Shown piece by piece: positions 6,838-25,477 of a stretch of DNA of 45,610 nt. Position 1 is the stretch's first letter. The number at the start of each line of letters is the position of its first letter. The notes under the pieces were generated by a model that saw only the letters and a list, made by a program, of their open reading frames with translations, was not told the origin of the DNA and did not search any database. The stretch comes from Pseudomonadota bacterium (GTDB lineage Bacteria > Pseudomonadota > Gammaproteobacteria > Burkholderiales > Burkholderiaceae_C), in contig JAKBBK010000016.1 of assembly GCA_021808525.1 (NCBI GenBank), forward strand, positions 1-45,610, written 5' to 3'. A program made the position numbers and the translations under genes.

Positions 6838-6871
6838 GATTTCGATTTTTGAAACATCATATACCGAAATC
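6838..6871. promoter_or_regulatory. inverted repeat, candidate IclR operator
   Basis: GATTTCG at 6838-6844 and CGAAATC at 6865-6871 are perfect 7-bp inverted arms separated by 20 bp. The site ends 12 bp upstream of the xsc -35 hexamer. It also spans the TATGAT or TATATG hexamers that could serve the IclR gene on the minus strand. This placement fits activation of xsc with autorepression. The arms are short, so the assignment is a hypothesis. Confidence 0.45.
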
Positions 6872-6883
6872 CGGAATTCTCTG

Positions 6884-6912
6884 TTGACGCAGGCAGAGGC
6901 CGAACCTATAGT
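6884..6912 (+). promoter_or_regulatory. sigma-70 promoter of xsc-pta
   Basis: TTGACG at 6884-6889 and TATAGT at 6907-6912 are separated by exactly 17 bp. They match the consensus at 5 of 6 positions each. The predicted start of transcription near 6919 leaves a leader of about 74 bases before the xsc ATG at 6993. It supports the choice of 6993 over an in-frame ATG at 6930. Confidence 0.7.
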
Positions 6913-6992
6913 TCGCTCACCTCAATGGAATGCAGCGTCTCGTTTTTTGCAATTTCTGCGCTGCTCCCTGTTCCCACCGGAGACTTCCCGTC

Positions 6993-8813
6993 ATGAGCCA
7001 GACCCCTCCCGCCGACACCCGCAAAGTCGTCACCGGCGTGCAAAAGATGACCCCTTCCGAAGCCTTTGTCGAAACCCTGGTGGCCAACGGGGTGACGGAC
7101 ATCTTCGGCATCATGGGCTCGGCCTTCATGGATGCGATGGACATCTTCGCCCCGGCCGGCATCCGGCTGATTCCCGTGGTGCACGAGCAGGGCGCCGCGC
7201 ACATGGCCGACGGCTATGCCCGGGTCAGCGGCCGCCACGGCGTGGTGATCGGCCAGAACGGCCCCGGCATCAGCAACTGCGTCACCGCCATCGCCGCCGC
7301 CTACTGGGCGCACAGCCCGGTGGTGATCGTCACCCCCGAGACCGGCACCATGGGCATCGGCCTGGGAGGCTTCCAGGAAGCCAACCAGTTGCCGATGTTC
7401 CAGGAGTTCACGAAGTACCAGGCCCACGTGGTGAACCCCAAGCGCATGGCCGAGTTCACCGCCCGCTGCTTCGACCGCGCGATCAGCGAAATGGGCCCGA
7501 CCCAGCTGAACATTCCGCGGGACTATTTCTACGGCGAGATCCAGTGCGAGATCCCGCGCCCCATGCGCGTGGAGCGTGGCGCCGGCGGCGAGCAGAGCCT
7601 GAACGACGCGGCCGAACTGCTGGCCCAGGCCCGGTTTCCGGTGATCCTGGCCGGTGGCGGCGTGGTCATGGGCGATGCGGTGGAGGAGTGCCGGCAACTG
7701 GCCGAACGCCTGGGCGCGCCGGTGGTCACCGGCTACCTGCGCAACGACGCCTTCCCCGCCAGCCATCCGCTGTGGGCGGGCCCGCTGGGCTACCAGGGTT
7801 CCAAGGCGGCCATGAAACTCATCGCGCAGGCCGACGTGGTGGTGGCGCTGGGCTCGCGCATGGGCCCCTTCGGCACCCTGCCGCAGCATGGCATGGACTA
7901 TTGGCCGAAGAACGCCAAGATCATCCAGGTCGAGGCCGACCACACCAACCTGGGCCTGGTGAAAAAGATCACCGTGGGCATCTGCGGCGACGCCAAGGCC
8001 GCCGCCAGGGCCATCACCCAGCGCCTGCAGGGTCGCAGCCTGGCCTGCGACGCCAGCAAGGCGCAGCGCGCCGAAACCATCCGCTCGGAAAAGGCCGCCT
8101 GGGAGAAGGAACTCGACGGCTGGACCCACGAGCGCGATGCCTACAGCCTGGACATGATCGAGGAAGCCCGCCAGGAGAAGCCCTTCAGCGGCGGCGAGTA
8201 CCTGCATCCGCGCCAGGTGCTTCGCGAGCTGGAAAAAGCCATGCCGGCGCGCGCCATGGTGTCCACCGACATCGGAAACATCAACTCGGTGGCCAACAGC
8301 TACCTGCGTTTCGAGGAGCCGCGCAGCTTTTTCGCGCCCATGAGCTTCGGCAACTGCGGCTACGCCCTGCCGACCATCATCGGGGCCAAGCTGGCGGCGC
8401 CCGATCGCCCGGCCATCGCCTACGCCGGTGACGGCGCCTGGGGCATGAGCATGGTCGAAATCATGACCTGCGTGCGTCACGACATCCCGGTGACCGCGGT
8501 GGTGTTCCACAACCGCCAATGGGGCGCGGAGAAGAAGAACCAGGTGGACTTCTACAACCGCCGCTTCGTGGCGGGCGAACTGGAAAGCGAGAGCTTCGCC
8601 GGCATCGCGCGCGCCATGGGCTCGGAAGCCATCGTGGTCGACCGCATCGAGGACGTGGGCGCGGCCCTGCAGCGCGCGGTGGACATGCAGATGAACCAGC
8701 GCAAGACCTGCGTGATCGAGATCATGTGCACCCGCGAGCTGGGCGACCCCTTCCGGCGCGATGCCTTGAGCAAGCCGGTGCGCTTGCTCGACAAGTACAA
8801 GGACTACGTGTGA
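6993..8813 (+). CDS. xsc: sulfoacetaldehyde acetyltransferase (Xsc)
   Basis: A 606-residue thiamine-diphosphate enzyme of the acetolactate-synthase superfamily. Xsc converts sulfoacetaldehyde plus phosphate to acetyl phosphate plus sulfite, the desulfonation step shared by taurine, isethionate and sulfoacetate catabolism. Glu65 in HEQGAAHMADGYAR is the cofactor-activating residue. The C-terminal cofactor motif starts with GDG at 479-481 and ends at Asn507 in NRQWGAEKKNQVDFY, a stretch I associate specifically with Xsc. The length is normal for the family. The ATG at 6993 has a GGAGA site at 6979-6983, nine bases upstream. The gene overlaps pta by four bases. Identification is strong because pta and two feeder pathways flank it. 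No sulfite-oxidising gene is nearby. Confidence 0.95.
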   Translation: MSQTPPADTRKVVTGVQKMTPSEAFVETLVANGVTDIFGIMGSAFMDAMDIFAPAGIRLIPVVHEQGAAHMADGYARVSGRHGVVIGQNGPGISNCVTAIAAAYWAHSPVVIVTPETGTMGIGLGGFQEANQLPMFQEFTKYQAHVVNPKRMAEFTARCFDRAISEMGPTQLNIPRDYFYGEIQCEIPRPMRVERGAGGEQSLNDAAELLAQARFPVILAGGGVVMGDAVEECRQLAERLGAPVVTGYLRNDAFPASHPLWAGPLGYQGSKAAMKLIAQADVVVALGSRMGPFGTLPQHGMDYWPKNAKIIQVEADHTNLGLVKKITVGICGDAKAAARAITQRLQGRSLACDASKAQRAETIRSEKAAWEKELDGWTHERDAYSLDMIEEARQEKPFSGGEYLHPRQVLRELEKAMPARAMVSTDIGNINSVANSYLRFEEPRSFFAPMSFGNCGYALPTIIGAKLAAPDRPAIAYAGDGAWGMSMVEIMTCVRHDIPVTAVVFHNRQWGAEKKNQVDFYNRRFVAGELESESFAGIARAMGSEAIVVDRIEDVGAALQRAVDMQMNQRKTCVIEIMCTRELGDPFRRDALSKPVRLLDKYKDYV

Positions 8814-9751
8814 ACACGCAGGAGTTCCCGCGCCTGCAGCAGCTGATCGAACGCGCGCGTGTCCTCGCCTCGCGCGAGAGCGCGCGCATCGGGCTGGTGC
8901 ACCCCTGCGACGCGCTGGCCGTGCAGGCGGCGCGAAGCATGGTCGAGCAGGGAGTCGCCCAGCCCGTGCTGGTGGGCAACCGGCGCCTCATCGAGGCCGC
9001 CGCCGAGCAGGCCGGCGTGGACGCGCAGGACTTCGAGATCGTGGAGACCGAAGCCGCCGCGTCCGCCGCCGCGGCGCGTGCCGTCGAGCTTGCGCGCGAC
9101 GGCACGCTGCGCGCGCTGATGAAGGGTTCGCTGCACACCGACGAGCTGATGTCCGCGGTGGTGCACCGGGACAAGGGCCTGCGCACCCCTAGGCGCATCA
9201 GCCACGCCTTCGTGTTCGACTTGCCCCGCTACCACAAGCTGCTGGCACTGGCCGATTGCGTGGTGAACATCACTCCCGACCTCAAGTCCAAGCTCGATAT
9301 CGTCGGCAACGCACTGGACCTGCTGCGGCGCATCGGCGTGCAGCAGCCCTCCGCGGCCGTCGTGGCCGCGGTGGAAACGGTGAACCCGGCGATCGCGGCC
9401 ACCCTGGACGCGCAGGAACTGGTGCGCCTGGGACGCGAGGGGCGCTGGGGCGATGCCGGCATCGAAGGCCCGCTGGGGTTCGACAATGCCTTTTCCGCCC
9501 AGGCGGCTCGCACCAAGCACATCGAGTCCGGGCACGCCGGCGACTTCGACCTCATGCTCGTGCCCGACCTCAACGCGGGCAACATGCTGTACAAGAGCTT
9601 TGTCTACGTGGGCGGGGGCGAATGCGCCGGGCTGGTGCTGGGCGCGCGGGTGCCCATCGTGCTGACCTCGCGCGCGGACTCGCTCACCGCCCGGGTCGCC
9701 TCCGTCGCGCTGGCGGCGATCGCCAGCGGCGAGCAGGCCGCCGCATCCTGA
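8810..9751 (+). CDS. pta: phosphate acetyltransferase of the sulfonate pathway
   Basis: A 313-residue phosphate acetyl/butyryltransferase domain protein without the N-terminal P-loop part of long Pta enzymes. It would convert the acetyl phosphate made by Xsc to acetyl-CoA for central metabolism. Family marks include GLVHPCDALAVQAARSMVEQG, VLVGNRRLI, ALMKGSLHTDELM, ITPDLKSKLDIVGNA and VPDLNAGNMLYKSFVYVGGGECAG. Translation most likely begins at the GTG at 8810, which overlaps the xsc stop codon as GTGA, a classic coupling arrangement. It ends convergent to tctA with 31 bp between. Confidence 0.93.
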   Translation: MNTQEFPRLQQLIERARVLASRESARIGLVHPCDALAVQAARSMVEQGVAQPVLVGNRRLIEAAAEQAGVDAQDFEIVETEAAASAAAARAVELARDGTLRALMKGSLHTDELMSAVVHRDKGLRTPRRISHAFVFDLPRYHKLLALADCVVNITPDLKSKLDIVGNALDLLRRIGVQQPSAAVVAAVETVNPAIAATLDAQELVRLGREGRWGDAGIEGPLGFDNAFSAQAARTKHIESGHAGDFDLMLVPDLNAGNMLYKSFVYVGGGECAGLVLGARVPIVLTSRADSLTARVASVALAAIASGEQAAAS

Positions 9752-9782
9752 GCCTGGCCCGGCGGGGCCCCGCGCCTCTTGC

Positions 9783-11336
9783 TCAGCCCCGCGTGCCGGA
9801 GGTGGCGCCCGCGATGGCCGGCCGGCGCCCGCGCCGGCGCAGCCAGTGCAGGAACTCGCGCATGACGGGGTAGAACACCGCGAAGGCGGACATGGCCAGC
9901 AGCGTGCCGCTCAGCGGCTCGGTGAAGGCCGCCGTCCAGTTCTCGTGGTGCACGACCATGCTGCGCATGAAGTTGGTCTCGCCGATGGGCCCCAGGATCG
10001 CGCCAAGCACCATCGGCGAGATCGGGAACCGATACTTCTCGAACAGATAGCCCAGCACGCCGAAGATGAGAATCATCCAGACGTCCGACATGGAGTTGCG
10101 GTCGGCATAGGCTCCCACCAGGCAGAACAGCACCACGATGGCATTGAGCAGGTACTGGGGAATCAGCAGCACGCGCACGACCAGGCGGATCCAGAAGAAT
10201 CCGATCAGGCACATGCCGATCACCGCCACGAACATGGACGCCAGGATGGTGTAGACCGTCACCCGCGACGCCGGATCCGACAGCAGCATCGGCCCGGGCT
10301 GCACCCCGTGCAGCAGGAAGGCGGCCAGGATCACGGCCGTGGCCGCGCTGCCGGGAATGCCCAGCGTGAGCATGGGAATCAGGTGCCCGGCCACGGAGGC
10401 GGTGGAGCCGATCTGCGGGGCCACGATGCCGCTGGGATGGCCCGTGCCCAGCTTGGCGCGCTCTCGGCCGTACTGCTTCTCGACCCCGTAGCAGATGAAG
10501 GAGGTGATGGTCGCGCCGGCACCCGGAACCACGCCCAGCAGCGTGCCCAGCGCGCTGCTGCGCAGGATCGCGCCGCGAACCCCCCAGATCTCGCGCAGGC
10601 TGGGAAAGCTGGTCTGCACCTTGACCTTGGCGTCGGCCCCGGAGCCCTTGATGGCCAGGCCCTGCCCGATGCGCTTGAACACCTCGCCCAGGCCGTACAT
10701 GCCCACCAGCACGGCCACCAGTTGCACCCCGTCGCCCAGGATGGGCACTCCGAAGGTGTAGCGGCTGACGCCGTAGATGCTGTCGACCCCGATGCAGGCC
10801 ACGAGCAGGCCCAGGCACAGGCTCACGAAGGCCTTGACCAGGGACTTGCCGGCCAGCGACACCACGGTGGTGAGCCCGAACACGATGGCCGCGAAATAGT
10901 CCTCGGAATTGAACTTCAGCGCCACGTCGGTGAGCGGCTGGGTCAGCGCGACCATCACCGCGGAGGACACCAGGCCACCGATCAGCGCGGCCACCAGGGC
11001 CCAGCCCAGGGGCTTGGCCGCGCCCTCGCGCTTGCCCATGGTGTAGCCGTCCCACAGCAGCGGCACGTCGTTGGGCTCGCCGGGAATGCGGTAGAGGATG
11101 GTGGTGAAACAACCCCCGTAGGTGCCCGAGAAGTAGATCGAGGTCAGCAGGATCACCGCCGGCTCGATCTGCATCTTGTAGGTGAAGGGCAAGGCCAGGA
11201 TCACGCCCATGACGAAGCCCAGGCCCGGCATGATGGACACCAGCATGCCCACCAGGATGCCCACGACCAGCATGAGCAGGTCGTAGGGCTGGAACACATG
11301 CATCAGCCCGAGGGCCAGATCGTGCAGAACGTTCAT
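9783..11336 (-). CDS. tctA: tripartite tricarboxylate transporter large membrane subunit (TctA)
   Basis: A 517-residue inner-membrane protein with about a dozen hydrophobic segments, the size and pattern of TctA. Typical features are VGILVGMLVSIMPGLG near the N-terminus, SGTYGGCFTTILYRIPGEP, GVVPGAGATITSFICYGVEKQ and MLTLGIPGSAATAVILAAF. With TctB and the binding protein TctC it forms a secondary, ion-driven uptake system for small carboxylates. Its ATG shares one base with the tctB stop codon, so translation is coupled. In this operon, behind a CoA ligase for a sulfonated acid, sulfoacetate is the most economical substrate guess; a tricarboxylate or other carboxylate cannot be excluded. Confidence 0.92.
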   Translation of the reverse strand: MNVLHDLALGLMHVFQPYDLLMLVVGILVGMLVSIMPGLGFVMGVILALPFTYKMQIEPAVILLTSIYFSGTYGGCFTTILYRIPGEPNDVPLLWDGYTMGKREGAAKPLGWALVAALIGGLVSSAVMVALTQPLTDVALKFNSEDYFAAIVFGLTTVVSLAGKSLVKAFVSLCLGLLVACIGVDSIYGVSRYTFGVPILGDGVQLVAVLVGMYGLGEVFKRIGQGLAIKGSGADAKVKVQTSFPSLREIWGVRGAILRSSALGTLLGVVPGAGATITSFICYGVEKQYGRERAKLGTGHPSGIVAPQIGSTASVAGHLIPMLTLGIPGSAATAVILAAFLLHGVQPGPMLLSDPASRVTVYTILASMFVAVIGMCLIGFFWIRLVVRVLLIPQYLLNAIVVLFCLVGAYADRNSMSDVWMILIFGVLGYLFEKYRFPISPMVLGAILGPIGETNFMRSMVVHHENWTAAFTEPLSGTLLAMSAFAVFYPVMREFLHWLRRRGRRPAIAGATSGTRG

Positions 11337-11866
11337 CAATGGATCCCCAGCAGCTTGAACACCAGCAGCGAGACCTGCATGAAAGGGCCCGTGCCCAACG
11401 GAAGCGACACGTAGACCACCTTCATGAAAATCAGCGTGAACACCCCCGACAGGATCAGCGCCGTCGGCCCCAGCCAGGCCCAGCGGCGCATGCCGCCGAT
11501 GAGCAGCAAGGCCGCCGCGAACAACACGGTGGCGATGAAAAAGCCCAGGTAGGGCATCGAGCCCACGTACAGCCCCGTGGCCGCCACGCCGACCCACACC
11601 AGGTAGGGGTGGGTCTCGGGTGGGGATACCAGCGCCTCGTCGACCGGCTCTTGCTCCTGCACCCCGCCGGGCGCGAAGGCAGCGCCCAGCAGGCCGATCA
11701 GCGAGACGCCCGCAAGCAGCACGCAGATCATCTTCGGCCACAGATCGGGGCCCGGCATGCGCGCGCTCGTCAGGATCGGAAACCGGTCGGCCTGCCGGTA
11801 CAGGAACACGGCCAGCGCGAGGGTGATCAGGTAGGGGATCACGCGCTTGAGCATGCTGGTGGACAT
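11336..11866 (-). CDS. tctB: tripartite tricarboxylate transporter small membrane subunit (TctB)
   Basis: A 176-residue membrane protein with four hydrophobic helices, the usual TctB architecture: one near residues 8-20, one near 45-65, and two in the C-terminal half separated by a short loop. Sequence similarity in this family is low, and the call rests on topology, length and position between tctC and tctA. The ATG at 11866 is preceded by a strong GGGAGAGG ribosome site. A second in-frame ATG lies four codons later, but the ribosome site favours the first. A 12-bp perfect hairpin lies between tctC and this gene. Confidence 0.85.
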   Translation of the reverse strand: MSTSMLKRVIPYLITLALAVFLYRQADRFPILTSARMPGPDLWPKMICVLLAGVSLIGLLGAAFAPGGVQEQEPVDEALVSPPETHPYLVWVGVAATGLYVGSMPYLGFFIATVLFAAALLLIGGMRRWAWLGPTALILSGVFTLIFMKVVYVSLPLGTGPFMQVSLLVFKLLGIH

Positions 11867-11894
11867 CGCCTCTCCCTGGCAATCGATCCGCTGT

Positions 11895-11927: not shown

Positions 11928-12920
11928 TCACTTCGAGATCTGGATGGTGTGCTCGGCCTGGCGCAGCCAGCCGGCCATGAAGGCATCGGCGTTCTGCATG
12001 GGCACATAGCTGTCCGGATCGGCGTATTGCTGGTTCAGGTAGGCCTTGAACTCGGGGGTCTGGGCAACCTTCGCCAGCGCATCCGCCAGCTTTTTCACGC
12101 GATCAGGCGGCGTGCCGGCCTTGACCACGATGGCCCGGAACTGGGGCAGGGTCACGTCCAGCCCCAGCTGGCCCGAGACCGGCACCTTCTCGAAGGCGGG
12201 AATCGGCACCGGCTTGGGATAGAAGAACAGCACGGGACGGAACTTGCCCGAATCGAAGTAGCTGCGCACGTCGCCGGTCTGCTCGTACACGATGTCGGCG
12301 TTGCCGCCGAGGATCGAGCTGTAGCGCTGGCCGGGCTTCGCGAAGGGCACCGACTCCAGCTTGATGCCCAGCTTGTGGGCCAGGTAGCGGGTGGTGATGT
12401 CGTCGGCGCTGCCGAAGCCCGTCACCGCGACCGTGAGAGTCTTTTTCCTGGCGGCGTTCTCCACGTCCTGCCAGGTCTTCCACGGGCCCTTGGCGTTGAC
12501 CCAGTAGCCCGAGGGCTGCTGGATCATGATGGCCAGCGGAATGATCTGGTTGAGCTTGAAGGGCGGGTTCTTGCTCGACAGCAGCGCGAAGGTATCGCCG
12601 ATCAGCACGGCCACGTTGTAGCCATCGGCCGGGGAGGTCAGCAGCTTGGTCATGCCCACCACGCCGTCGGCGCCGGGCACGTTGATCACGGGCAGCGACA
12701 CGCCGAGCTGCTTTTCCATGATCTTCGACGAGGTGCGGGCCAGCAGGTCCGCGCCTCCGCCTGGCCCCCAGGGCACGATGAAGTTGATCGGGTGGTCCGG
12801 ATAGGCGGCATGCGCCAGCGGCAGCGCGGCCGCCAGGCCCAGGGCGAAGGCCGCCTTGCGCAGGCGCCCCGCCCACGACGCGCGTGGCGTCCGACTGGCT
12901 TGGCTCGATGGTTGAATCAT
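11928..12920 (-). CDS. tctC: Bug/TctC-family periplasmic binding protein
   Basis: A 330-residue extracytoplasmic solute receptor of the tripartite tricarboxylate transporter (Bug) family, strongly expanded in Burkholderiales. A signal peptide is visible: arginine/lysine-rich start, hydrophobic FALGLAAALPLAHA, and a likely cleavage before AYPDHPINFIVPW. The mature start with YPDHPINFIVPWGPGGGADLLAR is the family hallmark. The usual carboxylate-contacting loops follow (GADGVVGMTKLLTSPADGYN and TGFGSADDITTRYLAHKLG). An AGGAGA ribosome site precedes the ATG. It lies 93 bp downstream of the sulfoacetate-CoA-ligase-like gene and upstream of tctBA on the same strand. Ligand inference: sulfoacetate or a related C2 sulfonate, from position only. 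Confidence 0.9.
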   Translation of the reverse strand: MIQPSSQASRTPRASWAGRLRKAAFALGLAAALPLAHAAYPDHPINFIVPWGPGGGADLLARTSSKIMEKQLGVSLPVINVPGADGVVGMTKLLTSPADGYNVAVLIGDTFALLSSKNPPFKLNQIIPLAIMIQQPSGYWVNAKGPWKTWQDVENAARKKTLTVAVTGFGSADDITTRYLAHKLGIKLESVPFAKPGQRYSSILGGNADIVYEQTGDVRSYFDSGKFRPVLFFYPKPVPIPAFEKVPVSGQLGLDVTLPQFRAIVVKAGTPPDRVKKLADALAKVAQTPEFKAYLNQQYADPDSYVPMQNADAFMAGWLRQAEHTIQISK

Positions 12921-13013: not shown

Positions 13014-14615
13014 TCAGGCGGGGTGCAGGCGTAGCGAGCGACGCACTGCCTCCGCCGGAAGTTCGGTGAGTTTGAGACGCTGGATCTTTCCCGAGGGTCC
13101 CCGCGGGAGGTCGTCGACGATATGGCAGGTCCTCGGCATCTTGTACCGACCCAGGTGCTGCAGACAGTGCTCGCGCAGTTCCTGCTCCTGCAATTGCGCC
13201 CCGGGCCGCAGCACGAGGTAGGCCTCGATGTTCTGGCCGTAGTTGCTGTCCTTCACGCCCACCGCCGCGGCTTCCAGCACCGAGGCGTGCTTGAGCAGGG
13301 CCTCGTCGATTTCGCGCGGCGCGATGTTCTCGCCGCCCTTGATGATCAATTCCTTCGCCCGCCCCGTGATGAAGTAGTAGCCGTCGGGGTCGCGGTAGCC
13401 GAGGTCGCCGGTGCGGAACCAGCCATCCGCCGTGAAGGCCTTGGCGGTCTCCTCGGGATTCTTCAGGTAGCCGCGCATCACGTTGCCGCCGCGCAGCTGG
13501 ATCTCGCCCACGGCTCCGTCGCCCAGCACGGCGCCATCGGCACCGACCACGCGGGCCTCGGTACCCGAGGGCCGGCCGATGCTGCCGATCTTGCGCAGCT
13601 CGCGTTGCACGGGGTTGCTGAACGAGGGAGCCGCGGTCTCGGTCAGACCCATGGTCTCGATGATGTCCACGCCGAAGCGCGCCTCGAAGGCTCGGTGGTG
13701 CTCGGGTGGCAAGGCCGCCGATGCCGAGCGGCAGAAGCGGATGCCCGCGAGCTCGCGCGGTCCGAGCTCGGGCGGCGCGGACTGGATCAGGTAGGCGATG
13801 ATGGTGGGCACCGCGTTCACCCAGGTGCAGCGGAACCCCAGCGCGTCGCGCCAGAAGCTGGTGGCGGAGAAGCGCGCCGGCATGGCCAGCGAACCGCCAT
13901 GGGTCAGGGGCGTGACCAGATTCACCACCAGGGCATTGATGTGATACAGAGGCAGCGGCGCCAGGCCGCGGTCGGTGGGGCCCAGGCGGTGTTCGCGGCT
14001 GATGTTCACGCCGTTGGCGCACAGATTGCCGTGGCTGAGCAGCACCCCCTTGGGCGTGCCGGTGGTGCCGGAGGTGTACATGAGCAGCGCCGCGTCCTCG
14101 AGCTCCGGCTGACGCGCCGGCTGGCGCGCCACGCCGCGCTTGCGCTCGAGCCAGTCGGCGCCGTCGAGCACCTCGATGTGGGGTGGGCGCGGCATGCGCG
14201 CCGCCAGGCCGCGCAGGAGCTGCTCGTGCTCGGCCACGGTCACGACCAGGCGGGTTTCGCTGTGTTCCAGGATGTAGGCCAGCTGCGTGGGCTGCGACAG
14301 CAGATTGATGGGGTTGATCACCATCCCCTGGTACATCGTGGCCAGGATCAGCATCGCCGCCTCCAGCCCATTGGGCAGGAACAGCGAGACCACGTCCCCC
14401 TGCCCCAGGCCGTGAGACGCGAAAAACGAGCCCAGCTCCGCGCACACGCGCTGCAGCTCGGCGAAATCGAGTTCGCGCCCGCTGTCCGTGGCCACGAAGT
14501 AGGTGGCTCCCGGGTCGCGCAGGGCGTTCAGGTCCACCAGGGCCTGGATGCTGCAAGGCTCGCCGCCCTCGGCGGGCAGCAGCATGGGTGCGAAGGGGCT
14601 CTCGGGACGGTTCAT
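13014..14615 (-). CDS. sauT: AMP-forming acyl-CoA ligase, probable sulfoacetate-CoA ligase (SauT-like)
   Basis: A 533-residue adenylate-forming (ANL superfamily) enzyme. The P-loop YTSGTTGTPKG lies at residues 180-190. TMGLTETAAP is the A5 motif and GWFRTGDLGYRDPDGYYFITGR covers A7-A8. The catalytic Lys510 in RGPSGKIQR makes the adenylate. The enzyme therefore joins an acid to CoA using ATP. The assignment to sulfoacetate rests on context: a divergent IclR gene and a CoA-acylating aldehyde dehydrogenase, plus xsc-pta, together reproduce the SauT-SauS-Xsc-Pta route known from Cupriavidus necator H16. Without that context it would only be a medium-chain or aryl acyl-CoA synthetase. The ATG at 14615 fits the family start but has a poor ribosome site. 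tctCBA follow on the same strand. Confidence 0.72.
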   Translation of the reverse strand: MNRPESPFAPMLLPAEGGEPCSIQALVDLNALRDPGATYFVATDSGRELDFAELQRVCAELGSFFASHGLGQGDVVSLFLPNGLEAAMLILATMYQGMVINPINLLSQPTQLAYILEHSETRLVVTVAEHEQLLRGLAARMPRPPHIEVLDGADWLERKRGVARQPARQPELEDAALLMYTSGTTGTPKGVLLSHGNLCANGVNISREHRLGPTDRGLAPLPLYHINALVVNLVTPLTHGGSLAMPARFSATSFWRDALGFRCTWVNAVPTIIAYLIQSAPPELGPRELAGIRFCRSASAALPPEHHRAFEARFGVDIIETMGLTETAAPSFSNPVQRELRKIGSIGRPSGTEARVVGADGAVLGDGAVGEIQLRGGNVMRGYLKNPEETAKAFTADGWFRTGDLGYRDPDGYYFITGRAKELIIKGGENIAPREIDEALLKHASVLEAAAVGVKDSNYGQNIEAYLVLRPGAQLQEQELREHCLQHLGRYKMPRTCHIVDDLPRGPSGKIQRLKLTELPAEAVRRSLRLHPA

Positions 14616-19001: not shown

Positions 19002-19739
19002 TCAATGCGCCAGAATGCCCATGGCCTGCTTTTTCAGCTCCAGGAACTGGGGCTCGAAGCTGGTCTCGGGCCTGCGCGGGCGCTCGAGCTCGATGGGCAC
19101 GTCCAGCGCCACCCGGCCCGGGCGCGCGGACAGCACCACCAGGCGCGTGCCCAGGAAGATCGCCTCGTCGATGTCGTGGGTGATGAACACGATGGTGCAC
19201 TGCAGCTTCTCCCACAACGAGGTGAGGAAGGACTGCATGGAGGCCCGGGTCTGCGCGTCCAGCGCACCGAAGGGCTCGTCCATGAGCAGGACCTTGGGTT
19301 TCATCACCAGCGCGCGGGCGATCGCCACGCGCTGCTGCATGCCCCCCGACAACTCATAGGGCTTGTGGCGCGCGAAGGCCTCCAGGCCGATGATGCGCAG
19401 GATCTCCGAACTCTCGCGCCGGCGCTGCGCGCGCGCCATGCCCTGCAGCTCGAGCCCGAACTCGATGTTGTCCTGCACGTTCAGCCAGGGGTACAGGCCC
19501 GCCTGCTGGAACACCACCACGCGGTCCGCCCCCGGCCGGCTCTTGACCTCGCCGTCGATGTAGATGGCCCCGCGCGACGGCGTGGTGAGCCCGGCCAGCA
19601 GGTGCAAGAGCGTGGTCTTGCCGCAGCCCGAGGATCCGAGCACGGTGACGAATTCACCGCCCTGGAACTGCAGGTTGATGTTCTCCAGCGCGGTGGTCGC
19701 GCCGAAGGTCTTGTACAGGGAATCGATGACGATGTTCAC
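19002..19739 (-). CDS. tauB: taurine ABC transporter ATPase (TauB)
   Basis: A 245-residue ABC ATPase of the nitrate/sulfonate/taurine (TauB/SsuB) branch. Walker A is GSSGCGKTT at 35-43, the Q-loop FQQAGLYPW is near 77-85, the signature LSGGMQQR is at 130-137, and Walker B VLLMDEP is at 150-156. The His-loop is ITHDIDEA. It powers uptake through the permease at 20879-21730. It is the last gene of the tauX-tauC-tauA-tauB series on the minus strand. The substrate taurine is inferred from the adjoining dehydrogenase genes; the branch also covers alkanesulfonates and nitrate. Confidence 0.87.
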   Translation of the reverse strand: MNIVIDSLYKTFGATTALENINLQFQGGEFVTVLGSSGCGKTTLLHLLAGLTTPSRGAIYIDGEVKSRPGADRVVVFQQAGLYPWLNVQDNIEFGLELQGMARAQRRRESSEILRIIGLEAFARHKPYELSGGMQQRVAIARALVMKPKVLLMDEPFGALDAQTRASMQSFLTSLWEKLQCTIVFITHDIDEAIFLGTRLVVLSARPGRVALDVPIELERPRRPETSFEPQFLELKKQAMGILAH

Positions 19740-19791: not shown

Positions 19792-20802
19792 TCAATGCCC
19801 GGAGTACTGCGGGGCGACGTTGTCGGCGAAACTCGCCGGCACCTGCTGGATGCGCCCGATCTGCTGCAGCACCTTGGCCGTGTTCACCAGAGTCATGTAG
19901 GTGGCCGAGGTCTTCACCCCCGCTCCCTCGCCCATGCCCTTGGAGGAATGCTGGTCGGCCCCGGAGAACAACTCGTAGCCGGCCAGTTCCTTGCGCGCCA
20001 CGGGCACCGTGACCCCGGTCTCGCGGGCCATGTCGGCGATGGCCTTCTCGGGGTCCTTGCGGGTCATCTGGTAGCCCTGGTCCATGGCCGCGACGAAGCC
20101 GCGGGTCAGCGCCGGGTGGGCGGCCGCCCACTTGGAGTCGGCGATGCACACGTTGTAGCTCGACGCCGTGCGCGGCAGGTCGCCGTCGGTCTTGAGCACC
20201 TGGCCCCCGGCCGCCTGCAGCGCGCTGAACACCGGATCCCAGACGATGGCCGCGTCGATCGCGCCCGTCACCCAGGAGGTGCGCATCTGCGGCGGCGCCA
20301 TGTTGATCTGGGTGACCGAGTCATAGGGCACGTGCGCCTCCTGCAGAAAGGTCGCCAGTTCGAAGGAGGACTGGGATCCGGCGACGATGGCGATCTTCTT
20401 GCCCTTCAGGCCGGCCACCGTGGTGATGTGGCTGGCGGGCTTGACCACGATGCCGGCTGCCGTCGTGTAGCGCTCCTGGTTGTACACGATGGCCATCGGC
20501 AGGCCCTGCGCGATCGCGGTGACCAGCGGCGGAACGCCCAGGCCGCACATGAAGGTCAGGCTGTTCGAGGCCAGCGCGCTCATCGCCGCCGGCCCGGAAC
20601 TGAACAGCTTGTACTCCACCTTGGCGTGCATGTTCTTCTCGAACAGGTGCTGGGCCATCGACACCATGTAGGGGTCGGCGCCGTTGTTCTCGTAGCCGAT
20701 GATCACCTCCGGCGTGTCGGCGGCCGAGGCCGCTACCGGAACCAGGCCTGCCGCCAGGGTGCAGGCGGCGAGCGCGCCGCGCATCCAGGATCGCTTGTTC
20801 AT
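19792..20802 (-). CDS. tauA: taurine/sulfonate ABC transporter periplasmic binding protein (TauA)
   Basis: A 336-residue NMT1/SsuA-like binding protein. A signal peptide covers about residues 1-27 (basic MNKRSWMRG, hydrophobic core, cleavage near ASAADTPEV). The mature protein starts with EVIIGYENNGADPYMVS. It includes the family's SGPAAMSALASNSLTFMCGLGVPPLVTAIAQG and KGKKIAIVAGSQSSFELATFL blocks. An AGGAGAGAG ribosome site precedes the ATG. It delivers the sulfonate to TauC. The ligand is assumed to be taurine because tauX, tauC and divergent tauY surround it. A strong hairpin follows the gene. Confidence 0.87.
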   Translation of the reverse strand: MNKRSWMRGALAACTLAAGLVPVAASAADTPEVIIGYENNGADPYMVSMAQHLFEKNMHAKVEYKLFSSGPAAMSALASNSLTFMCGLGVPPLVTAIAQGLPMAIVYNQERYTTAAGIVVKPASHITTVAGLKGKKIAIVAGSQSSFELATFLQEAHVPYDSVTQINMAPPQMRTSWVTGAIDAAIVWDPVFSALQAAGGQVLKTDGDLPRTASSYNVCIADSKWAAAHPALTRGFVAAMDQGYQMTRKDPEKAIADMARETGVTVPVARKELAGYELFSGADQHSSKGMGEGAGVKTSATYMTLVNTAKVLQQIGRIQQVPASFADNVAPQYSGH

Positions 20803-20878: not shown

Positions 20879-21730
20879 TCAGTTGTGGCCGCGCCAGGGC
20901 ACGACCAGGCTTTCGATCTTGCGGATCACCAGTTCCATGGCGTAGCCGATGAGCCCGATGATCACGATGCCGACGATGACGATGCTCACCTGCAGCGCCT
21001 GCCCGGCGAACTGCACCAGCCAGCCCAGCCCGCTGCTGGCGGCGATCAGCTCGGCCGCGACCAGGCAGGTCCAGGCCACGCCGATGCCCACGCGCATGGC
21101 GGTGAAGATCTCGGGCAGCGCCGACGGCAGGATCACCTTGCGGAAGATCTGCGCGTTGCTCGCGCCCAGGGTGCGCGCCACCGACACCCGCAACGGCGGC
21201 GTGCTCTTCACCCCGGAGATGGTGCCGATGATGATCACGGGAATCGTGCCCACCAGGATCAGGATGGCCTTGGGAAGCTCGCCGATGCCGAACCACACGA
21301 CCAGCAGCGGGATATAGGCCAGCGGCGGCACCGGACGCACGAACTGCAGCAGCGGGTCGACGATGTCGAACACCACCTTGTTGCGCGACATCAGCAGCCC
21401 CACCGGAACCCCGATGACGATGGCGCCGACAAAGCCCACCAGGATGCGAAAGCAGCTGATGCCGATGTCGGCGCTCAGGGACTGTCCGCCATAGCCCTGG
21501 CGCAGGATGGACACGAAGGCCTGCCACACCGCCACCGGCGAGGGCAGAGCGAAGGGCGGGAACACGCCGGCCACGGCCACCAGTTGCCACACCACCAGCG
21601 CGCCCAGCAGCACGAGCACGGTGATCCACTGCGGGGCGAGCCGCAGGCGCGATTTGCGTGCCGGGCGGGCGGAGGGAGGGGGCGCGGAAACATTCATGTT
21701 CTGGCCTCGCTGTTCAGGGATCGCGCTCAT
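20879..21730 (-). CDS. tauC: taurine ABC transporter permease (TauC)
   Basis: A 283-residue inner-membrane permease of the BPD_transp_1 superfamily with about six hydrophobic segments. The cytoplasmic EAA loop that contacts the ATPase is VARTLGASNAQIFRKVILP, followed by SALPEIFTAMRVGIGVAW. The N-terminal 33 residues are cytoplasmic and proline/arginine rich. The ATG at 21730 has a near-perfect GGAGG eight bases upstream; a second in-frame ATG at 21697 has none, which decides the start. It is 14 bp after tauX and 76 bp before tauA. Confidence 0.88.
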   Translation of the reverse strand: MSAIPEQRGQNMNVSAPPPSARPARKSRLRLAPQWITVLVLLGALVVWQLVAVAGVFPPFALPSPVAVWQAFVSILRQGYGGQSLSADIGISCFRILVGFVGAIVIGVPVGLLMSRNKVVFDIVDPLLQFVRPVPPLAYIPLLVVWFGIGELPKAILILVGTIPVIIIGTISGVKSTPPLRVSVARTLGASNAQIFRKVILPSALPEIFTAMRVGIGVAWTCLVAAELIAASSGLGWLVQFAGQALQVSIVIVGIVIIGLIGYAMELVIRKIESLVVPWRGHN

Positions 21731-21744
21731 CGAAGGTACCTCCG

Positions 21745-22122
21745 TCAGCGAGCCGGGATACGTTCCTTGCGGAACGCGTTCTTCACCGCGATGCGGCCGT
21801 CGGCGAAGGTGAACACGTCGACCATGCGGGCCTCGATGCGCAGGCCGTCGGCGCGGGTGCCGCGAAAGGTCGATTCGGTGACCCCACGGTCGCCGCAGAC
21901 GAAATGCACCGGGTCCAGCCAGGCGGCGTCGGGAAAGGTCGTCCAGGCCAGCTCGAATCCGGCCCGCACCTCGTCGCGTCCGTGGAAACTGCGTCCGAGC
22001 ACATCCGGGCCGCCCACCGCGTGGAATACGCAATGCTCCGCCATGAAACTCATCAAACGCTCGAGATCATGGGCATTCCATGCGTCTGAAAATGCCTGGA
22101 GAGTATCTACGGTGGGATTCAT
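21745..22122 (-). CDS. tauX: NTF2/SnoaL-like protein, probable taurine dehydrogenase small subunit (TauX)
   Basis: A 125-residue single-domain protein of the NTF2-like fold: FSDAWNAHDLERLMSFMAEHCVFHAVGGP, then a SFHGRDEVRAGF loop and a C-terminal beta sheet ending VDVFTFADGRIAVKNAFRKER. Many NTF2-like proteins are small enzymes or subunits. Here it is the first gene of the tau transport operon and is divergent from the FAD gene at 22504. That matches the small/large subunit split of TauXY, the cytochrome-c-linked taurine dehydrogenase that makes sulfoacetaldehyde and ammonia. From memory, TauX homologues are annotated as NTF2-like, but I could not check. The fold call is strong and the TauX name moderate. 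Confidence 0.65.
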   Translation of the reverse strand: MNPTVDTLQAFSDAWNAHDLERLMSFMAEHCVFHAVGGPDVLGRSFHGRDEVRAGFELAWTTFPDAAWLDPVHFVCGDRGVTESTFRGTRADGLRIEARMVDVFTFADGRIAVKNAFRKERIPAR

Positions 22123-22163
22123 GGTCGACGGCCTGGACGTTTCTCGATGTCTGCGGTTTTTTC

Positions 22164-22169
22164 AATATA
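22164..22169 (-). promoter_or_regulatory. -10 element of the tauX-tauCAB operon
   Basis: TATATT on the minus strand, 5/6 to consensus. No recognisable -35 lies 17 bp upstream; instead the CTGG-type repeat pair lies there. This is the signature of an activator-dependent promoter. The expected start of transcription is near 22157, leaving about 35 bases of leader. Confidence 0.5.
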
Positions 22170-22190
22170 GTGAGGGCCCGAGTCGACTGT

Positions 22191-22223
22191 GTAGATCCAG
22201 TTCGTCGCTTTTGATTGGTCCAG
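22191..22223 (-). promoter_or_regulatory. candidate TauR direct repeats for tauX-tauCAB
   Basis: Read on the minus strand, CTGGACCAAT (22223 to 22214) and CTGGATCTAC (22200 to 22191) repeat with a 23-bp period. They point toward tauX, and the proximal copy begins 31 bp before the TATATT -10. As I recall, the Rhodobacter capsulatus TauR site is a direct repeat of CTGGAC-type boxes, which these resemble. Confidence 0.6.
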
Positions 22224-22267
22224 ATTCCTGAGCGGCCCGCCACTCGGCGAAGCCCCCGGATCCAGGC

Positions 22268-22314
22268 TGAAAATCAAGGGTTTTCACTCATCTGGAAAAC
22301 CCGCACGGTTTTCC
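22268..22314. promoter_or_regulatory. alternating inverted half-site array at the centre of the tauX/tauY region
   Basis: GGAAAACC (22294-22301) and GGTTTTCC (22307-22314) are perfect 8-bp arms around CGCAC. GGGTTTTC (22278-22285) also pairs with GAAAACCC (22295-22302), and TGAAAA (22268-22273) with TTTTCA (22281-22286). Four GAAAA/TTTTC half-sites alternate in direction at steps of 12, 14 and 14 bp. The rightmost palindrome is centred at 22304, and the midpoint of the two divergent -10 elements is 22306. Confidence 0.55.
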
Positions 22315-22389
22315 GGCCGCCCCCTGTTGCATGGCGATTGTGCAGTGCGCAAAGCCGCGCTCGATTATCTCGGCTGCGCTGGTCGGGAT

Positions 22390-22422
22390 CTGGACCACCA
22401 TTTTGGTGCGATCTGGCTCCAT
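22390..22422 (+). promoter_or_regulatory. candidate TauR direct repeats for tauY
   Basis: CTGGACCACC at 22390-22399 and CTGGCTCCAT at 22413-22422 repeat with the same 23-bp period as the minus-strand pair, now pointing toward tauY. The proximal copy begins 30 bp before the TATCAT -10. The proximal copy keeps only CTGG of the CTGGAC core, so it is weaker. Confidence 0.55.
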
Positions 22423-22442
22423 GAGCTTTCAATATCGCCCCC

Positions 22443-22448
22443 TATCAT
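22443..22448 (+). promoter_or_regulatory. -10 element of tauY
   Basis: TATCAT, 5/6 to consensus, without a -35. The implied transcription start near 22455 falls after the in-frame ATG at 22447, which supports 22504 as the tauY start. Confidence 0.5.
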
Positions 22449-22503
22449 GGTTCGCAAACCCTGCTCCTTCGGGTGCCTCCTTGAATCCTCGGGTACGAAT
22501 CCC

Positions 22504-23931
22504 ATGAATGTCTCCGCTGAATCCGAAACCCCTTCCCCGCTGCGCCCCTACGACCCCCGCTACGACCCCCTGGTGCATGCGACGCCGGGGCACGGCCACG
22601 GCTATGCGCCGACCTACTGGGTGGGAACGGCCGGCGCGCCTCCGGACGACGACGGTCCCGTGCGGGGCGACCTCGACGTGGACGTCGCCGTGGTCGGCTC
22701 GGGTTTCACGGGCCTGTCCACCGCCTTGTTCCTGGCACGCGAGCACGGGATCCGCGCCACCGTGCTGGAGGCCAACCAGGCCGCCTGGGGCTGCACCAGC
22801 CGCAACGGCGGCCAGGGCCAGAACGCCAGCGGCCGCCTGTACCGCTCGCAGTGGCTCGCGCGCTGGGGGCGCGAGGTCGCCCTGCGCCTGGACCGGGAGA
22901 TCCGCGAGGGCTTCGACACCTTCAAGTCGCTGGTGGCCGAATTCCCCGAATGCGAGCCCCAGCCCGGCGGACACCTGTACATCGCGCATCGCGACAAGAA
23001 GATGGACTTCCTGCGCGACGAGGCGCAGGTGATGCGCGAGGTCTTCGGCTACGACACCCGCATGCTCAGCCGCGAGCAGGTGCACGAGCGCTACGTGCGC
23101 GACGCGGAGTGCAGCGGCGCGATGCACGAACCCGACGGCATCGGCGTGCATCCGCTCAAGCTGGCTTTCGCCTACCAGCGCAGCGCGCGCGCCCTGGGCG
23201 TGCGCATCCATACCTCCAGCCCGGTCACGCGCTTCGAGGGCTCGAAGGGCCGCTACCTGCTGCACACCCCGGGCGGCATCGTGCGCGCGCGCGCCGTGGC
23301 CTTCGCCACGGGCGGCTACACCAGCAATGCCCTGCATCCACGCCTGCGCAACAAGATCCTGCCCATCCTGTCCAACTCGCTGGTCACGCGCGTGCTGCGC
23401 GACGACGAGATCGAGGCCACGGGATTTCGCACCCACGAGGTGATCACCGATACGCGCACGCTGCGCTTTTACTATCGCCTCCTGCCCGACCGTCGCGTGC
23501 AGATCGGCAGCCGAAGCTCCATCACCGGGGCCGACGCCCCCCATCCCAGGCACCTGCAACTGCTGATCGATGGCCTGCACCGCAAGTTCCCGGCCCTGCG
23601 CGGGATCGACATCGACTACTCCTGGTGGGGATGGGTGGACGTGAGCCATGACATGATGCCGCGCATCACCCAGCCCGACCCCTCCGAACAGGTGTTCTAC
23701 GCGCTGGGCTACGGAGGCAACGGCGTGTCCTTCTCGGCCCATGCCGGGCGCCGCATGGCCCAGCGCGTGGCCGGCAAGGCCCCGCCCGTGCTGGACCTGC
23801 CGATCTACGCCGGCGAGCTCGAATACCCCAACGCCTTCGACCTCGTGCGCTCGCCCCTGCTCGCGCCCATGCGCAGGCTGGGCCAGCGCCTGCTGTACCG
23901 CTGGTACTTCCTGCGCGACGAACGCCTCTGA
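22504..23931 (+). CDS. tauY: FAD-dependent oxidoreductase, probable taurine dehydrogenase large subunit (TauY)
   Basis: A 475-residue protein of the D-amino-acid-oxidase/glycine-oxidase fold. The FAD-binding GSGFTG at 65-70 is followed by LSTALFLAREHG. The flavin contact region is AAWGCTSRNGGQGQNASG. The C-terminal FAD motif is YALGYGGNGVSFSAHAGRRMA. The N-terminal YDPRYDPLV...GYAPTYWVGTAG block is what I associate with TauY. TauY with TauX oxidatively deaminates taurine to sulfoacetaldehyde, feeding Xsc. No transmembrane segment is seen. The divergent tauX-tauCAB operon supports the role. Alternatives are oxidation of N-methyltaurine or another amine by a related enzyme. An upstream in-frame ATG (22447) is rejected because it would precede the predicted transcription start. 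Confidence 0.75.
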   Translation: MNVSAESETPSPLRPYDPRYDPLVHATPGHGHGYAPTYWVGTAGAPPDDDGPVRGDLDVDVAVVGSGFTGLSTALFLAREHGIRATVLEANQAAWGCTSRNGGQGQNASGRLYRSQWLARWGREVALRLDREIREGFDTFKSLVAEFPECEPQPGGHLYIAHRDKKMDFLRDEAQVMREVFGYDTRMLSREQVHERYVRDAECSGAMHEPDGIGVHPLKLAFAYQRSARALGVRIHTSSPVTRFEGSKGRYLLHTPGGIVRARAVAFATGGYTSNALHPRLRNKILPILSNSLVTRVLRDDEIEATGFRTHEVITDTRTLRFYYRLLPDRRVQIGSRSSITGADAPHPRHLQLLIDGLHRKFPALRGIDIDYSWWGWVDVSHDMMPRITQPDPSEQVFYALGYGGNGVSFSAHAGRRMAQRVAGKAPPVLDLPIYAGELEYPNAFDLVRSPLLAPMRRLGQRLLYRWYFLRDERL

Positions 23932-23952
23932 GCCCTGCGCCCCGGCACCGGC

Positions 23953-25299
23953 TCAGGCTCGGCGCGCATCCTCGCGGGACACACCCCGCATGAGCATCAC
24001 GGAGACCAGGCTGACCAGCGCCACCAGCACCATGTAGCCGGCCACCAGCCAGGGCTTGCCATGGCCCACGCCGATCAGCGCGGTGGCGATCAGCGGCGTC
24101 AGGCCGCTGGCGAAGATGCCGGAGAACTGGTAGGCGAAGGACACCCCGGTGTAGCGCACATGGGCGTCGAACTGGCTGGCGAACAGCGAGGACTCGGGGC
24201 CGTAGACCATCGGGTAGCCCAGCGAGAAGGGCACGATCAGCCCCAGCAGCACGACCCCGTAGTTGTGGGCGCCCCAGGTGTGCATGACCCAGAAGGACAG
24301 CACCGAGGCCACGGCGATGAACACGGCTCCGATGGCGAAGATGCGCCGCAGGCCGAAACGGTCGGCCGCCCAGCCCGACAGCACGATGAAGGGCAGCATC
24401 AGGGCCGAGGAGATGATCACCGCGTTGAGCGCGTCGCCGCGGCTCAGGCCCAGGGAGTGGGTGATGTAGTAGATGCTGAACACCCCGAAGGTGTTGAAGC
24501 AGGCGCCTTCGACATAGCGCGCGCCCAGGGTCAGCAGGACCTCGCGCTTGAAGTCGCGGAACATCACCGCCACCGGCACCGGCACGATGCGCTTTTCCCG
24601 CTGGGCGCGCTCGAAGTCGGGGGTCTCCATGATCTTCAGGCGCACGTACAGGCCGATGGCCACGAGCAGGCCGCTCATGAAAAAGGCCACGCGCCAGCCC
24701 CAGGAGATGAAGGAGGAGTCCGGCAGCAGGTTCAGCACGGCCACCACCGCGGCGCTGCTCATCAGGCCCAGGGGCACCCCCAGCTGGGGCCAGCTTCCGT
24801 ACAGCGCGCGCTTGCCGGGGCTGGCGTGCTCGATGGTCATGAGCACCGCGCCGCCCCACTCGCCGCCGATGCCGATGCCCTGCAGCACCCGCAGCACCAG
24901 CAGCAGCAGCGGCGCGGCCACGCCCACCGCGGCGGTGGTCGGCAGCGCGCCGATCAGGAAGGTCGAGCCCCCCATGATCAGCATGGTCAGCACCAGGATG
25001 GTCTTGCGCCCGATGCGGTCCCCGAAGTGGCCGAAGATGATGCCGCCGATGGGCCGAGACAGAAAGCCCACCGCGAAGGTGGTGTAGGCGGCGATGGTGC
25101 CGATCACCGGCGACAGATTGGGGAAGAACAGGCGGTTGAGCACCAGCGGCGTGAGCACGCCGTACAGGAAGAAGTCGTACCACTCGATGGTCGTTCCCAG
25201 GGTGCTGGCGAAGACGATCAGGGCCTTGCTGGTGCTCGGCGCGGCGACGCCCGGGGCCGCCCCGGAATCGGGCATGGCCCGCGATGGTGATGCGCTCAT
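23953..25299 (-). CDS. MFS transporter of the metabolite:H+ symporter (MHS) family
   Basis: A 448-residue twelve-helix carrier. The opening TLGTTIEWYDFFLYG, the loop 2-3 signature FGHFGDRIGRK and the mid-region IGIGGEWGGAVLM are typical of MHS proteins (ShiA, KgtP, ProP relatives), which move organic acids or zwitterions with protons. It closes the sulfonate block, convergent to tauY with 21 bp between. The sulfoacetate carrier SauU of Cupriavidus is also an MFS protein, so this may be an alternative sulfonate importer, but the substrate cannot be read from sequence. GAGGAGA precedes the ATG. Its promoter and flanking repeats are listed separately. Confidence 0.85.
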   Translation of the reverse strand: MSASPSRAMPDSGAAPGVAAPSTSKALIVFASTLGTTIEWYDFFLYGVLTPLVLNRLFFPNLSPVIGTIAAYTTFAVGFLSRPIGGIIFGHFGDRIGRKTILVLTMLIMGGSTFLIGALPTTAAVGVAAPLLLLVLRVLQGIGIGGEWGGAVLMTIEHASPGKRALYGSWPQLGVPLGLMSSAAVVAVLNLLPDSSFISWGWRVAFFMSGLLVAIGLYVRLKIMETPDFERAQREKRIVPVPVAVMFRDFKREVLLTLGARYVEGACFNTFGVFSIYYITHSLGLSRGDALNAVIISSALMLPFIVLSGWAADRFGLRRIFAIGAVFIAVASVLSFWVMHTWGAHNYGVVLLGLIVPFSLGYPMVYGPESSLFASQFDAHVRYTGVSFAYQFSGIFASGLTPLIATALIGVGHGKPWLVAGYMVLVALVSLVSVMLMRGVSREDARRA

Positions 25300-25412
25300 G
25301 GTGTCTCCTCGACGAATGGGCTGTTCGGCAGCGCCAGGGCGCGCCGGCAGGGCGACCGTGGCTCGACACGGAACCCGCGGGCTGCTGGCCGGCGTGATTG
25401 TTCTTAAAAAAT

Positions 25413-25428
25413 GGGACGTTTTGTTCCG
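25413..25428. promoter_or_regulatory. imperfect repeat at the MFS transcription start
   Basis: GGGAC and GTTCC are near-inverted arms around GTTTT at 25413-25427, with a following G. The site lies at and just downstream of the predicted MFS transcription start, a place typical of repressors. The nine bases GGGACGTTT recur at 14754-14762 in the sauT/IclR gap. Confidence 0.3.
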
Positions 25429-25436
25429 TCGAGATC

Positions 25437-25465
25437 ACTATATGCGTGGCCGCTTCGGATCACAA
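25437..25465 (-). promoter_or_regulatory. promoter of the MFS gene
   Basis: On the minus strand TTGTGA (25465-25460) and TATAGT (25442-25437) are 17 bp apart. Transcription would begin near 25430, about 130 bases before the ATG at 25299. Confidence 0.55.
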
Positions 25466-25477
25466 CGTTCCGCATAT
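25440..25477. promoter_or_regulatory. inverted repeat flanking the MFS promoter
   Basis: ATATGCG at 25440-25446 and CGCATAT at 25471-25477 are perfect inverted arms. One overlaps the -10 and the other lies just upstream of the -35, so a bound dimer could occlude the promoter. The rest of 25478-25593 before the LolC gene shows nothing I can name. Confidence 0.4.

Follow-up and report, generated by a model that had tools for sequence, protein, structure and literature searches.

A probable C2-sulfonate island with a shared Xsc-Pta outlet and a linked CobST-type pair that may serve one Xsc lineage

Introduction

Cupriavidus necator H16 reportedly has a sauST(U) route for sulfoacetate. Its AMP-forming ligase, SauS, the sulfoacetaldehyde acetyltransferase Xsc and the phosphate acetyltransferase Pta recur in the DNA studied here, contig C127 (JAKBBK010000016.1; 45,610 bases, analysed whole and called the window) of the Burkholderiales genome G000 (GCA_021808525.1; 3.2 Mb, 144 contigs, ∼90% complete), but where H16 has SauU alone, the window has TctABC and an MHS-family carrier, with a joined taurine module. 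On a plasmid of Rhodobacter (Cereibacter) sphaeroides 2.4.1, genes for a MocR regulator, three genes of a tripartite ATP-independent periplasmic (TRAP) transporter, and genes for an NTF2-like protein, a flavin adenine dinucleotide (FAD) protein, xsc, an exporter and pta are consecutive; the NTF2/FAD pair we take to be TauXY. That cluster shares MocR (44% identical), TauX (45%), TauY (58%), xsc and pta with the window, but its importer is of the TRAP type, its Xsc is just 47% identical, and neither cobST nor sauST is present in the 24 kb read. P. pantotrophus has a similar taurine cluster with genes for an ATP-binding cassette (ABC) importer. According to the accessible part of PMC12625764, sauST with a tripartite transporter defines a 'hybrid' cluster type, and SauXYZ of Bilophila wadsworthia is a tripartite transporter; as in the window, sauS, sauT and TctABC stand together in the hybrid clusters, and those symbionts also have taurine pathways.

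Beside xsc, the window also carries cobS and cobT, homologues of the AAA+ and von Willebrand factor A (VWA) components of cobaltochelatase CobNST. They differ from it in their frequent occurrence in genomes with no CobN match, in a separate CobT clade, in scores below the cobaltochelatase cut-offs and in their place next to xsc. MoxR-VWA maturation pairs (CbbQO, NorQD, CoxDE) likewise consist of an AAA+ and a VWA protein encoded beside one enzyme, but the helper described here is CobST-related and its putative target is a thiamine diphosphate (TPP) enzyme. We think it probable, if far from certain, that the window holds a C2-sulfonate island of three separately regulated modules, whose outlet includes CobST as an activase or chaperone for this Xsc lineage. 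The narrower proposal, that CobST has separated from the cobaltochelatase lineage and become a dedicated activase or cofactor chaperone of one Xsc clade, working through the AAA+ protein and a metal ion-dependent adhesion site (MIDAS), is put forward tentatively. The Xsc-activase role, the substrates and the regulation are in each case what we infer.

Results

The CobST pair is linked to one clade of xsc

The genes iclR1, cobS and cobT (3227-6807) share a strand, separated by 32 and 18 nt, and are divergent from xsc. The preliminary description of this DNA had left them out; iclR1 ends at 6807, just outside position 6838, where that description began. The 185-nt iclR1/xsc intergenic region contains a GAAACATCATATACCG block and TTGAC(G/T)-17-TATAGT hexamers, kept in eight aligned genomes.

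Among 399 order-level genomes, 52 xsc places were found, and the surroundings of 51 were read, window included (the 52nd lies inside one of the stretches read). cobS-cobT stood within 6 kb of xsc in 10 of the 14 loci with xsc of at least 80% identity (window included), and 24 and 31 kb from it in G338 and G182, respectively. The pair was beside none of the 37 other xsc loci in the stretches read, some of them on short contigs. In the reverse search, CobS was matched at E ≤ 1e-60 in 15 genomes, 12 of which had an xsc of this clade on the same contig; those without were G107, G153 and G193, and the G153 match, only 142 residues long, was left unclassified. Fisher's test for co-occurrence of xsc and cobS gave 1e-18 when genomes were counted and 2e-11 when genera were (the mixed genus g10 being taken to have both), values that overstate the surprise because the genomes are related. 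Similarly, the two genes occur in the identical 11 of 25 same-genus genomes, but as one linked locus is concerned this is nearly a single observation.

On plasmids, all seven records with CobS of at least 76% identity had xsc of at least 82% within 6 kb, and one of them is from Photobacterium (Vibrionales). Ten plasmid records had xsc of at least 82%; three of these, from Rhodococcus, were missing from the 17 records with CobS above 60%. A comparison of 18 cobST-bearing loci revealed IclR in 18 (paralogues pooled), tauY and tauX in 14 each, and xsc in 17, a figure that partly reflects selection, since loci were chosen for cobST and xsc. The locus without xsc, from Caballeronia, is clipped by the stretch edge.

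The pair is distinct from canonical cobaltochelatase CobST

The 26 xsc-linked CobS rows and the 26 CobT rows each formed one clade (100%). The 30 Xsc rows also formed one clade (100% by the Shimodaira-Hasegawa-like approximate likelihood ratio test), on which the CobST label needs two changes; Thiomonas FB-6, labelled CobST-linked on that tree although its cobST was not read, was excluded from this count. When 17 class-level stretches were added, the CobT tree split 29 xsc-type from 22 canonical rows at 100%. The MIDAS motif was DCSGSM in 28 of the 29 xsc-type rows (exception, G564) and in a single canonical row (G468). The acidic stretch that canonical CobT usually has was weak in the xsc-type rows, and several canonical rows were also low. 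Both proteins score below the curated cobaltochelatase cut-offs (Table 1). As in AAA+/VWA (MoxR-like) helper pairs, a Walker A/B ATPase and a MIDAS protein are encoded next to each other here.

If cobST were an ordinary cobaltochelatase pair, next to xsc by chance in an island otherwise as described, the 62-69% identity of its CobS to CobS of Sphingomonas, Sinorhizobium, Cereibacter, Pandoraea and others would be readily understood, as would the presence of CobN in 6 of the 15 genomes with this CobS (7 of 20 genomes tested). However, CobN (PF02514) had no match in the other 9 of the 15, among them the host, the single-contig G117 and the near-complete G033 and G338; the absence from the host weighs less, because that genome is incomplete. 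The separate CobT clade, the sub-threshold scores of both proteins and the occurrence of the pair with one xsc clade in several arrangements also speak against it. We therefore rejected canonical cobaltochelatase CobST, and consider a chance neighbour of that kind improbable. The cobST genes of Sphingomonas, Cereibacter, Sinorhizobium and Rhizobium lie near DnaJ/J-domain and BolA genes.

A class-level search for CobT matched 17 of 369 genomes. By tree, G564, G685 and G469 carry new xsc-type CobT, and all three have xsc at 80-81%. The prediction that xsc-type CobT implies an adjacent xsc was borne out in G564, where xsc-pta-cobS-cobT are read in the same direction (the open reading frame caller gives pta and cobS a 4-nt overlap) with a molybdopterin/DmsC oxidoreductase set nearby; adjacency was not shown in G685 and G469. 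By score the CobT of G469 is canonical, but the tree groups it with G200, on a long branch, among the xsc-type rows. No xsc was matched in any of the 14 stretches that carry canonical CobT, and the genomes concerned have xsc of 46-48% elsewhere or none, except G685, which holds both CobT types.

Xsc as the putative target

A number of observations weigh against a tight bond between CobST and Xsc. In G685, xsc lies at a contig edge, and none was found in the 19 kb around cobST, which is on a different contig; cobST and xsc are also on different contigs in G469. CobS had no match in G166 and G352, members of the same Xsc clade, and no cobST stands beside the same-clade xsc of Rhodococcus DK17; given these three members, CobST is not strictly needed. 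More distant Xsc, e.g. that of R. sphaeroides, stand without CobST. In G338 the pair lies closer to tauXY (∼5 kb) than to xsc (24 kb). G166 and G352 (L118, L122) have the order xsc-pta-PF03601 exporter-like gene-tauY, without cobST or a detected tauX, and in G166 a gene for a TRAP-type binding protein comes next.

It is thus a serious possibility, although on balance we doubt it, that the linkage reflects shared horizontal transfer or common regulation, and that cobST acts on TauXY, on a metal-dependent enzyme or in stress. The mere two changes on the Xsc tree would fit such a history, as would the proximity of cobST and IclR to tauXY in G338 and a Pandoraea oxalativorans plasmid (L203, 3377-10835) on which CobS-CobT lie directly behind ureG in a urease cluster, another pair by a non-B12 enzyme. 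On the other hand, the linkage has been retained despite repeated change of order and orientation relative to xsc. Furthermore, no tauXY match was found in 20 kb at the xsc-pta-cobS-cobT locus of G564, or in 18 kb on each side of xsc and cobST in C. campinensis.

Most simply, then, the target of CobST would be Xsc. We propose that CobST may be an ATP-driven remodelling machine for this Xsc lineage that acts through its MIDAS adaptor, a mechanism borrowed by analogy from the MoxR-VWA pairs. If so, it would be, to our knowledge, the first such machine for a TPP-dependent carbon-sulfur lyase. Among the papers listed in a literature search, which included accessible parts of PMC6829993 and PMC2864759, none was found to link CobS/CobT, cobaltochelatase or MoxR to sulfoacetaldehyde or taurine, although all three terms occur in one methanogen genome paper; cobS is not mentioned in the main text of the TauR regulon study (PMC5320631).

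Candidate determinants of CobST dependence within Xsc were rejected. An insert at residues ∼393-401 (606-amino acid numbering) is a clade marker only: it is whole in two of the three CobST-less members and partial in Rhodococcus, and so does not explain CobST dependence. At five positions the 26 linked rows are identical and the sister pair G166/G352 differs, but Rhodococcus does not; as one lineage, this is too weak. Correlations of distances over 20 rows were r = 0.66 for Xsc-CobT, 0.53 for Xsc-CobS and 0.82 for CobS-CobT. They were not used as evidence, because they do not distinguish CobST from the FAD protein (on 15 rows, 0.56 for Xsc-FAD and 0.63 for Xsc-CobT).

Probable taurine and sulfoacetate modules with one outlet

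The gene content given in the preliminary description (xsc-pta, a CoA ligase, SauS, tauABC, an NTF2/FAD pair, TctABC, an MHS carrier and three regulators) was found in full. The island spans 5986-25299 and consists of xsc-pta, the ligase with sauS and TctCBA, a taurine module (MocR, TauCAB, TauX and TauY), the MHS carrier and the regulators IclR1, IclR2 and MocR (Table 1). Xsc and SauS both pass curated equivalog models. There is a single Xsc in the host genome, and the next TPP enzyme is only 32% identical to it.

The genes support a taurine route that appears complete on paper as far as sulfoacetaldehyde. TauABC would import taurine, and TauXY, a name for the FAD/NTF2 pair that follows the accessible part of PMC5320631, would oxidise it to sulfoacetaldehyde. 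On the minus strand tauX is the first gene of tauX-C-A-B, and tauY is read divergently from the plus strand, which rules out tauXY as one operon here. The MocR protein, a TauR candidate, may control both divergent promoters. The TauR consensus CTGGACYTAA is described, in the same part of PMC5320631, as occurring in direct repeats, and an alignment of seven same-genus genomes revealed two tandem CTGGAC-like pairs, ∼23 nt apart, in the tauX/tauY region, the pair on the tauX side being imperfect in G009. Over the window, the full consensus with at most two mismatches occurs 38 times against 22 expected, which is near background, and only the intergenic alignments are informative. Some scores weigh against these assignments: the MocR protein passes the NCBIfam PdxR equivalog model, TauABC fall below the NCBIfam taurine equivalog cut-offs (TauA 120 against 304, TauB 262 against 357, TauC 223 against 342), and TauA is just 25-31% identical to TauA of other taurine clusters, although 78% in Paraburkholderia phymatum. 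We infer that TauABC are parts of an ABC importer of the taurine/sulfonate type, with taurine as the probable substrate.

Likewise, a sulfoacetate route complete on paper as far as sulfoacetaldehyde is supported by the second module. TctABC would import sulfoacetate, the AMP-forming ligase would convert it to sulfoacetyl-CoA, and SauS would reduce this to sulfoacetaldehyde. IclR2 lies between sauT-tctCBA and sauS, and the module is probably regulated separately. It counts against the assignment that SauT reaches none of the cut-offs among the 25 NCBIfam matches listed; the name was chosen for its adjacency to sauS and stays provisional. As neither SauT nor TauABC passes a curated cut-off, their substrates were assigned from context. 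SauS-SauT occur with a tripartite transporter in the order-level genomes G088, G156, G362, G388 and G411, and sauS-sauT adjoin TctABC on plasmids of Ruegeria sp. THAF33 and Sulfitobacter alexandrii.

Both routes would end in Xsc, which is predicted to split sulfoacetaldehyde into acetyl phosphate and sulfite, and Pta would form acetyl-CoA. The earlier proposal that the two routes share one Xsc thus stands as to gene content and the single Xsc, while the substrates are predictions from homology and context. Sulfite would be oxidised by a SorA-like and/or a Sox enzyme. Disposal outside the window had been foreseen in the preliminary description, and other contigs of the host do encode a SorA-like protein (542 bits, below the curated cut-off of 600) and SoxC (610 bits, cut-off 420), whose gene is next to soxY and one for a SoxA/TsdA-type cytochrome.

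That the ligase, SauS and TctABC have a different short acid as substrate, and the FAD/NTF2 pair a different amine, would agree with the exclusively general acyl-CoA ligase models matched by SauT, all below cut-off, and with an aminophosphonate oxidoreductase as the best curated model of the FAD protein (136 against 633). But SauS passes the curated sulfoacetaldehyde model, and unrelated genomes repeatedly carry sauST and the FAD/NTF2 pair together with xsc; we regard this reading as very unlikely.

Conservation and compound islands elsewhere

A synteny search for the combined locus, suggested in the preliminary description, found the order in nine same-genus genomes within the limits of their contigs. 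It is kept from cobT to macB in five of six with long contigs (G002, G008, G009, G018 and G022), and as far as the contigs extend in G004, G014, G020 and G024; Thiomonas sp. FB-6 matches from iclR1, inside which its locus ends, to macB. This conserved order rules out chance assembly or an artefact. In the sixth long-contig genome, G005, the MHS gene directly adjoins sauS, mocR, tauBAC, tauX and tauY are missing, and the remainder is kept; this natural loss indicates that the sulfoacetate module and the outlet can persist where the taurine module is absent. In the stretches read from G033 and G323, taurine genes and xsc were present and sauS was not. Within the genus, host included, TauY occurs in 10 and Xsc in 11 of the 25 genomes. 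SauS as query matched 43 named loci, of which those from Thiomonas sp. (two records, including FB-6, with SauS 91% identical) or a Proteobacteria metagenome-assembled genome are closest. In G009 (L026, 1749-6747) two sauT-like ligase genes lie in tandem. Contig C93 of G006 (L051), a same-genus genome 82% complete, retains tauY and the MHS carrier, and no close xsc was found in that genome.

Among the 51 xsc loci read, tauY and sauS occurred together only in the window and in G088, a compound island with TctCBA and TauABC in ∼20 kb. Elsewhere, Caballeronia sp. NK8 has xsc, cobST, FAD, NTF2, sauS and sauT in one island, and P. phymatum STM815 has two xsc copies with cobST between them, sauST, FAD, NTF2 and MocR; TctCBA is present only in G088 of these three. 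Such counts are lower bounds, because BLAST-bit thresholds were used and contig ends cut some loci. A partial literature search, in which the key 2010 paper was not covered, found no paper on a compound taurine-sulfoacetate locus. The preliminary description had suggested that the complete routes in one locus with a tripartite tricarboxylate transporter were new. This claim is weak: the Ruegeria and Sulfitobacter plasmids and the accessible part of PMC12625764 make the sauST-with-transporter part already known, and compound islands exist in P. phymatum, Caballeronia NK8 and G088.

The xsc copies flanking cobST in P. phymatum (L195/L043) are nearly identical to each other, and the TauBAC beside the first are 78-85% identical to those of the window, far closer than other taurine clusters. 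The Rhodococcus sp. DK17 plasmid (L196, 1899-17875) has sauS beside genes for a CoA-binding protein and a succinate-CoA-ligase-beta-like protein, possibly of the SauCD type, together with transhydrogenase genes, TauE, the same-clade xsc and a phosphotransacetylase, without cobST in the stretch. In the window, the gap between the convergent mocR and tauB holds a 52-nt unit three times in tandem (18759-18932). A scan of all 45,610 nt found no tRNA and no Rfam match at gathering score.

Table 1. Features of the island and of the adjoining cobST genes, in window positions
Feature	Position	Strand	Basis
cobT-like VWA/MIDAS protein, xsc-associated type, DCSGSM motif	3227..4960	-	PF11775/PF06213; TIGR01651 276 bits, cut-off 759; own clade
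cobS-like AAA+ ATPase, Walker A/B intact	4979..5953	-	PF12556/PF07728; TIGR01650 518 bits, cut-off 558.55; alignment
IclR1 regulator, likely first gene of iclR1-cobS-cobT, divergent from xsc	5986..6807	-	PF01614/PF09339; 32-nt gap to cobS
Conserved GAAACATCATATACCG block and TTGACG-17-TATAGT promoter-like hexamers towards xsc	6851..6912		kept in 8 aligned genomes, FB-6 with TTGACT
xsc, sulfoacetaldehyde acetyltransferase	6993..8813	+	TIGR03457 1056 bits, cut-off 676
pta, phosphate acetyltransferase, PTA/PTB family, start approximate	8804..9751	+	PF01515; NCBIfam matches
tctA, start approximate	9783..11288	-	PF01970 427 bits
tctB, start approximate	11336..11860	-	PF07331
tctC, substrate-binding protein	11928..12920	-	PF03401
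sauT-like AMP-forming acyl-CoA ligase	13014..14615	-	PF00501 270 bits; accompanies sauS in other genomes
IclR2 regulator, between divergent sauT and sauS	14880..15692	+	PF01614
sauS, acylating sulfoacetaldehyde dehydrogenase	15762..17195	+	NF047625 785 bits, cut-off 600
MocR-type regulator, TauR candidate	17232..18725	+	PF00392 and PF00155; 44% to R. sphaeroides cluster MocR; NCBIfam PdxR model 361 over 320
tauB, ABC ATPase	19002..19739	-	taurine equivalog 262 bits, cut-off 357
tauA, periplasmic binding protein	19792..20802	-	TIGR01728/TIGR01729, both below cut-off
tauC, permease	20879..21697	-	NF007545 223 bits, below cut-off 342
tauX candidate, NTF2/SnoaL-like subunit	21745..22122	-	PF12680; 45% to R. 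sphaeroides counterpart
Two tandem CTGGAC-like repeat pairs, TauR-type sites, ∼23-nt spacing, at divergent tauX/tauY promoters	22194..22419		kept in 7 aligned genomes
tauY candidate, FAD-dependent (DAO family) subunit	22504..23931	+	PF01266 212 bits; 58% to R. sphaeroides counterpart
MHS-family carrier of the major facilitator superfamily	23953..25299	-	TIGR00883 373 bits, cut-off 443

Discussion

In the organism, one desulfonating enzyme would serve as the hub for two environmental sulfonates, and the host sox genes could also draw energy from the sulfite released. Pairs related to the one described here are annotated as 'cobalt chelatase' (Caballeronia NK8), and in such genomes calls of B12 capability made from cobST could be in error. 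Of greater interest than the island itself is the CobST-like pair, a testable case in which the motor of a chelatase may have been reused for a central carbon-sulfur lyase.

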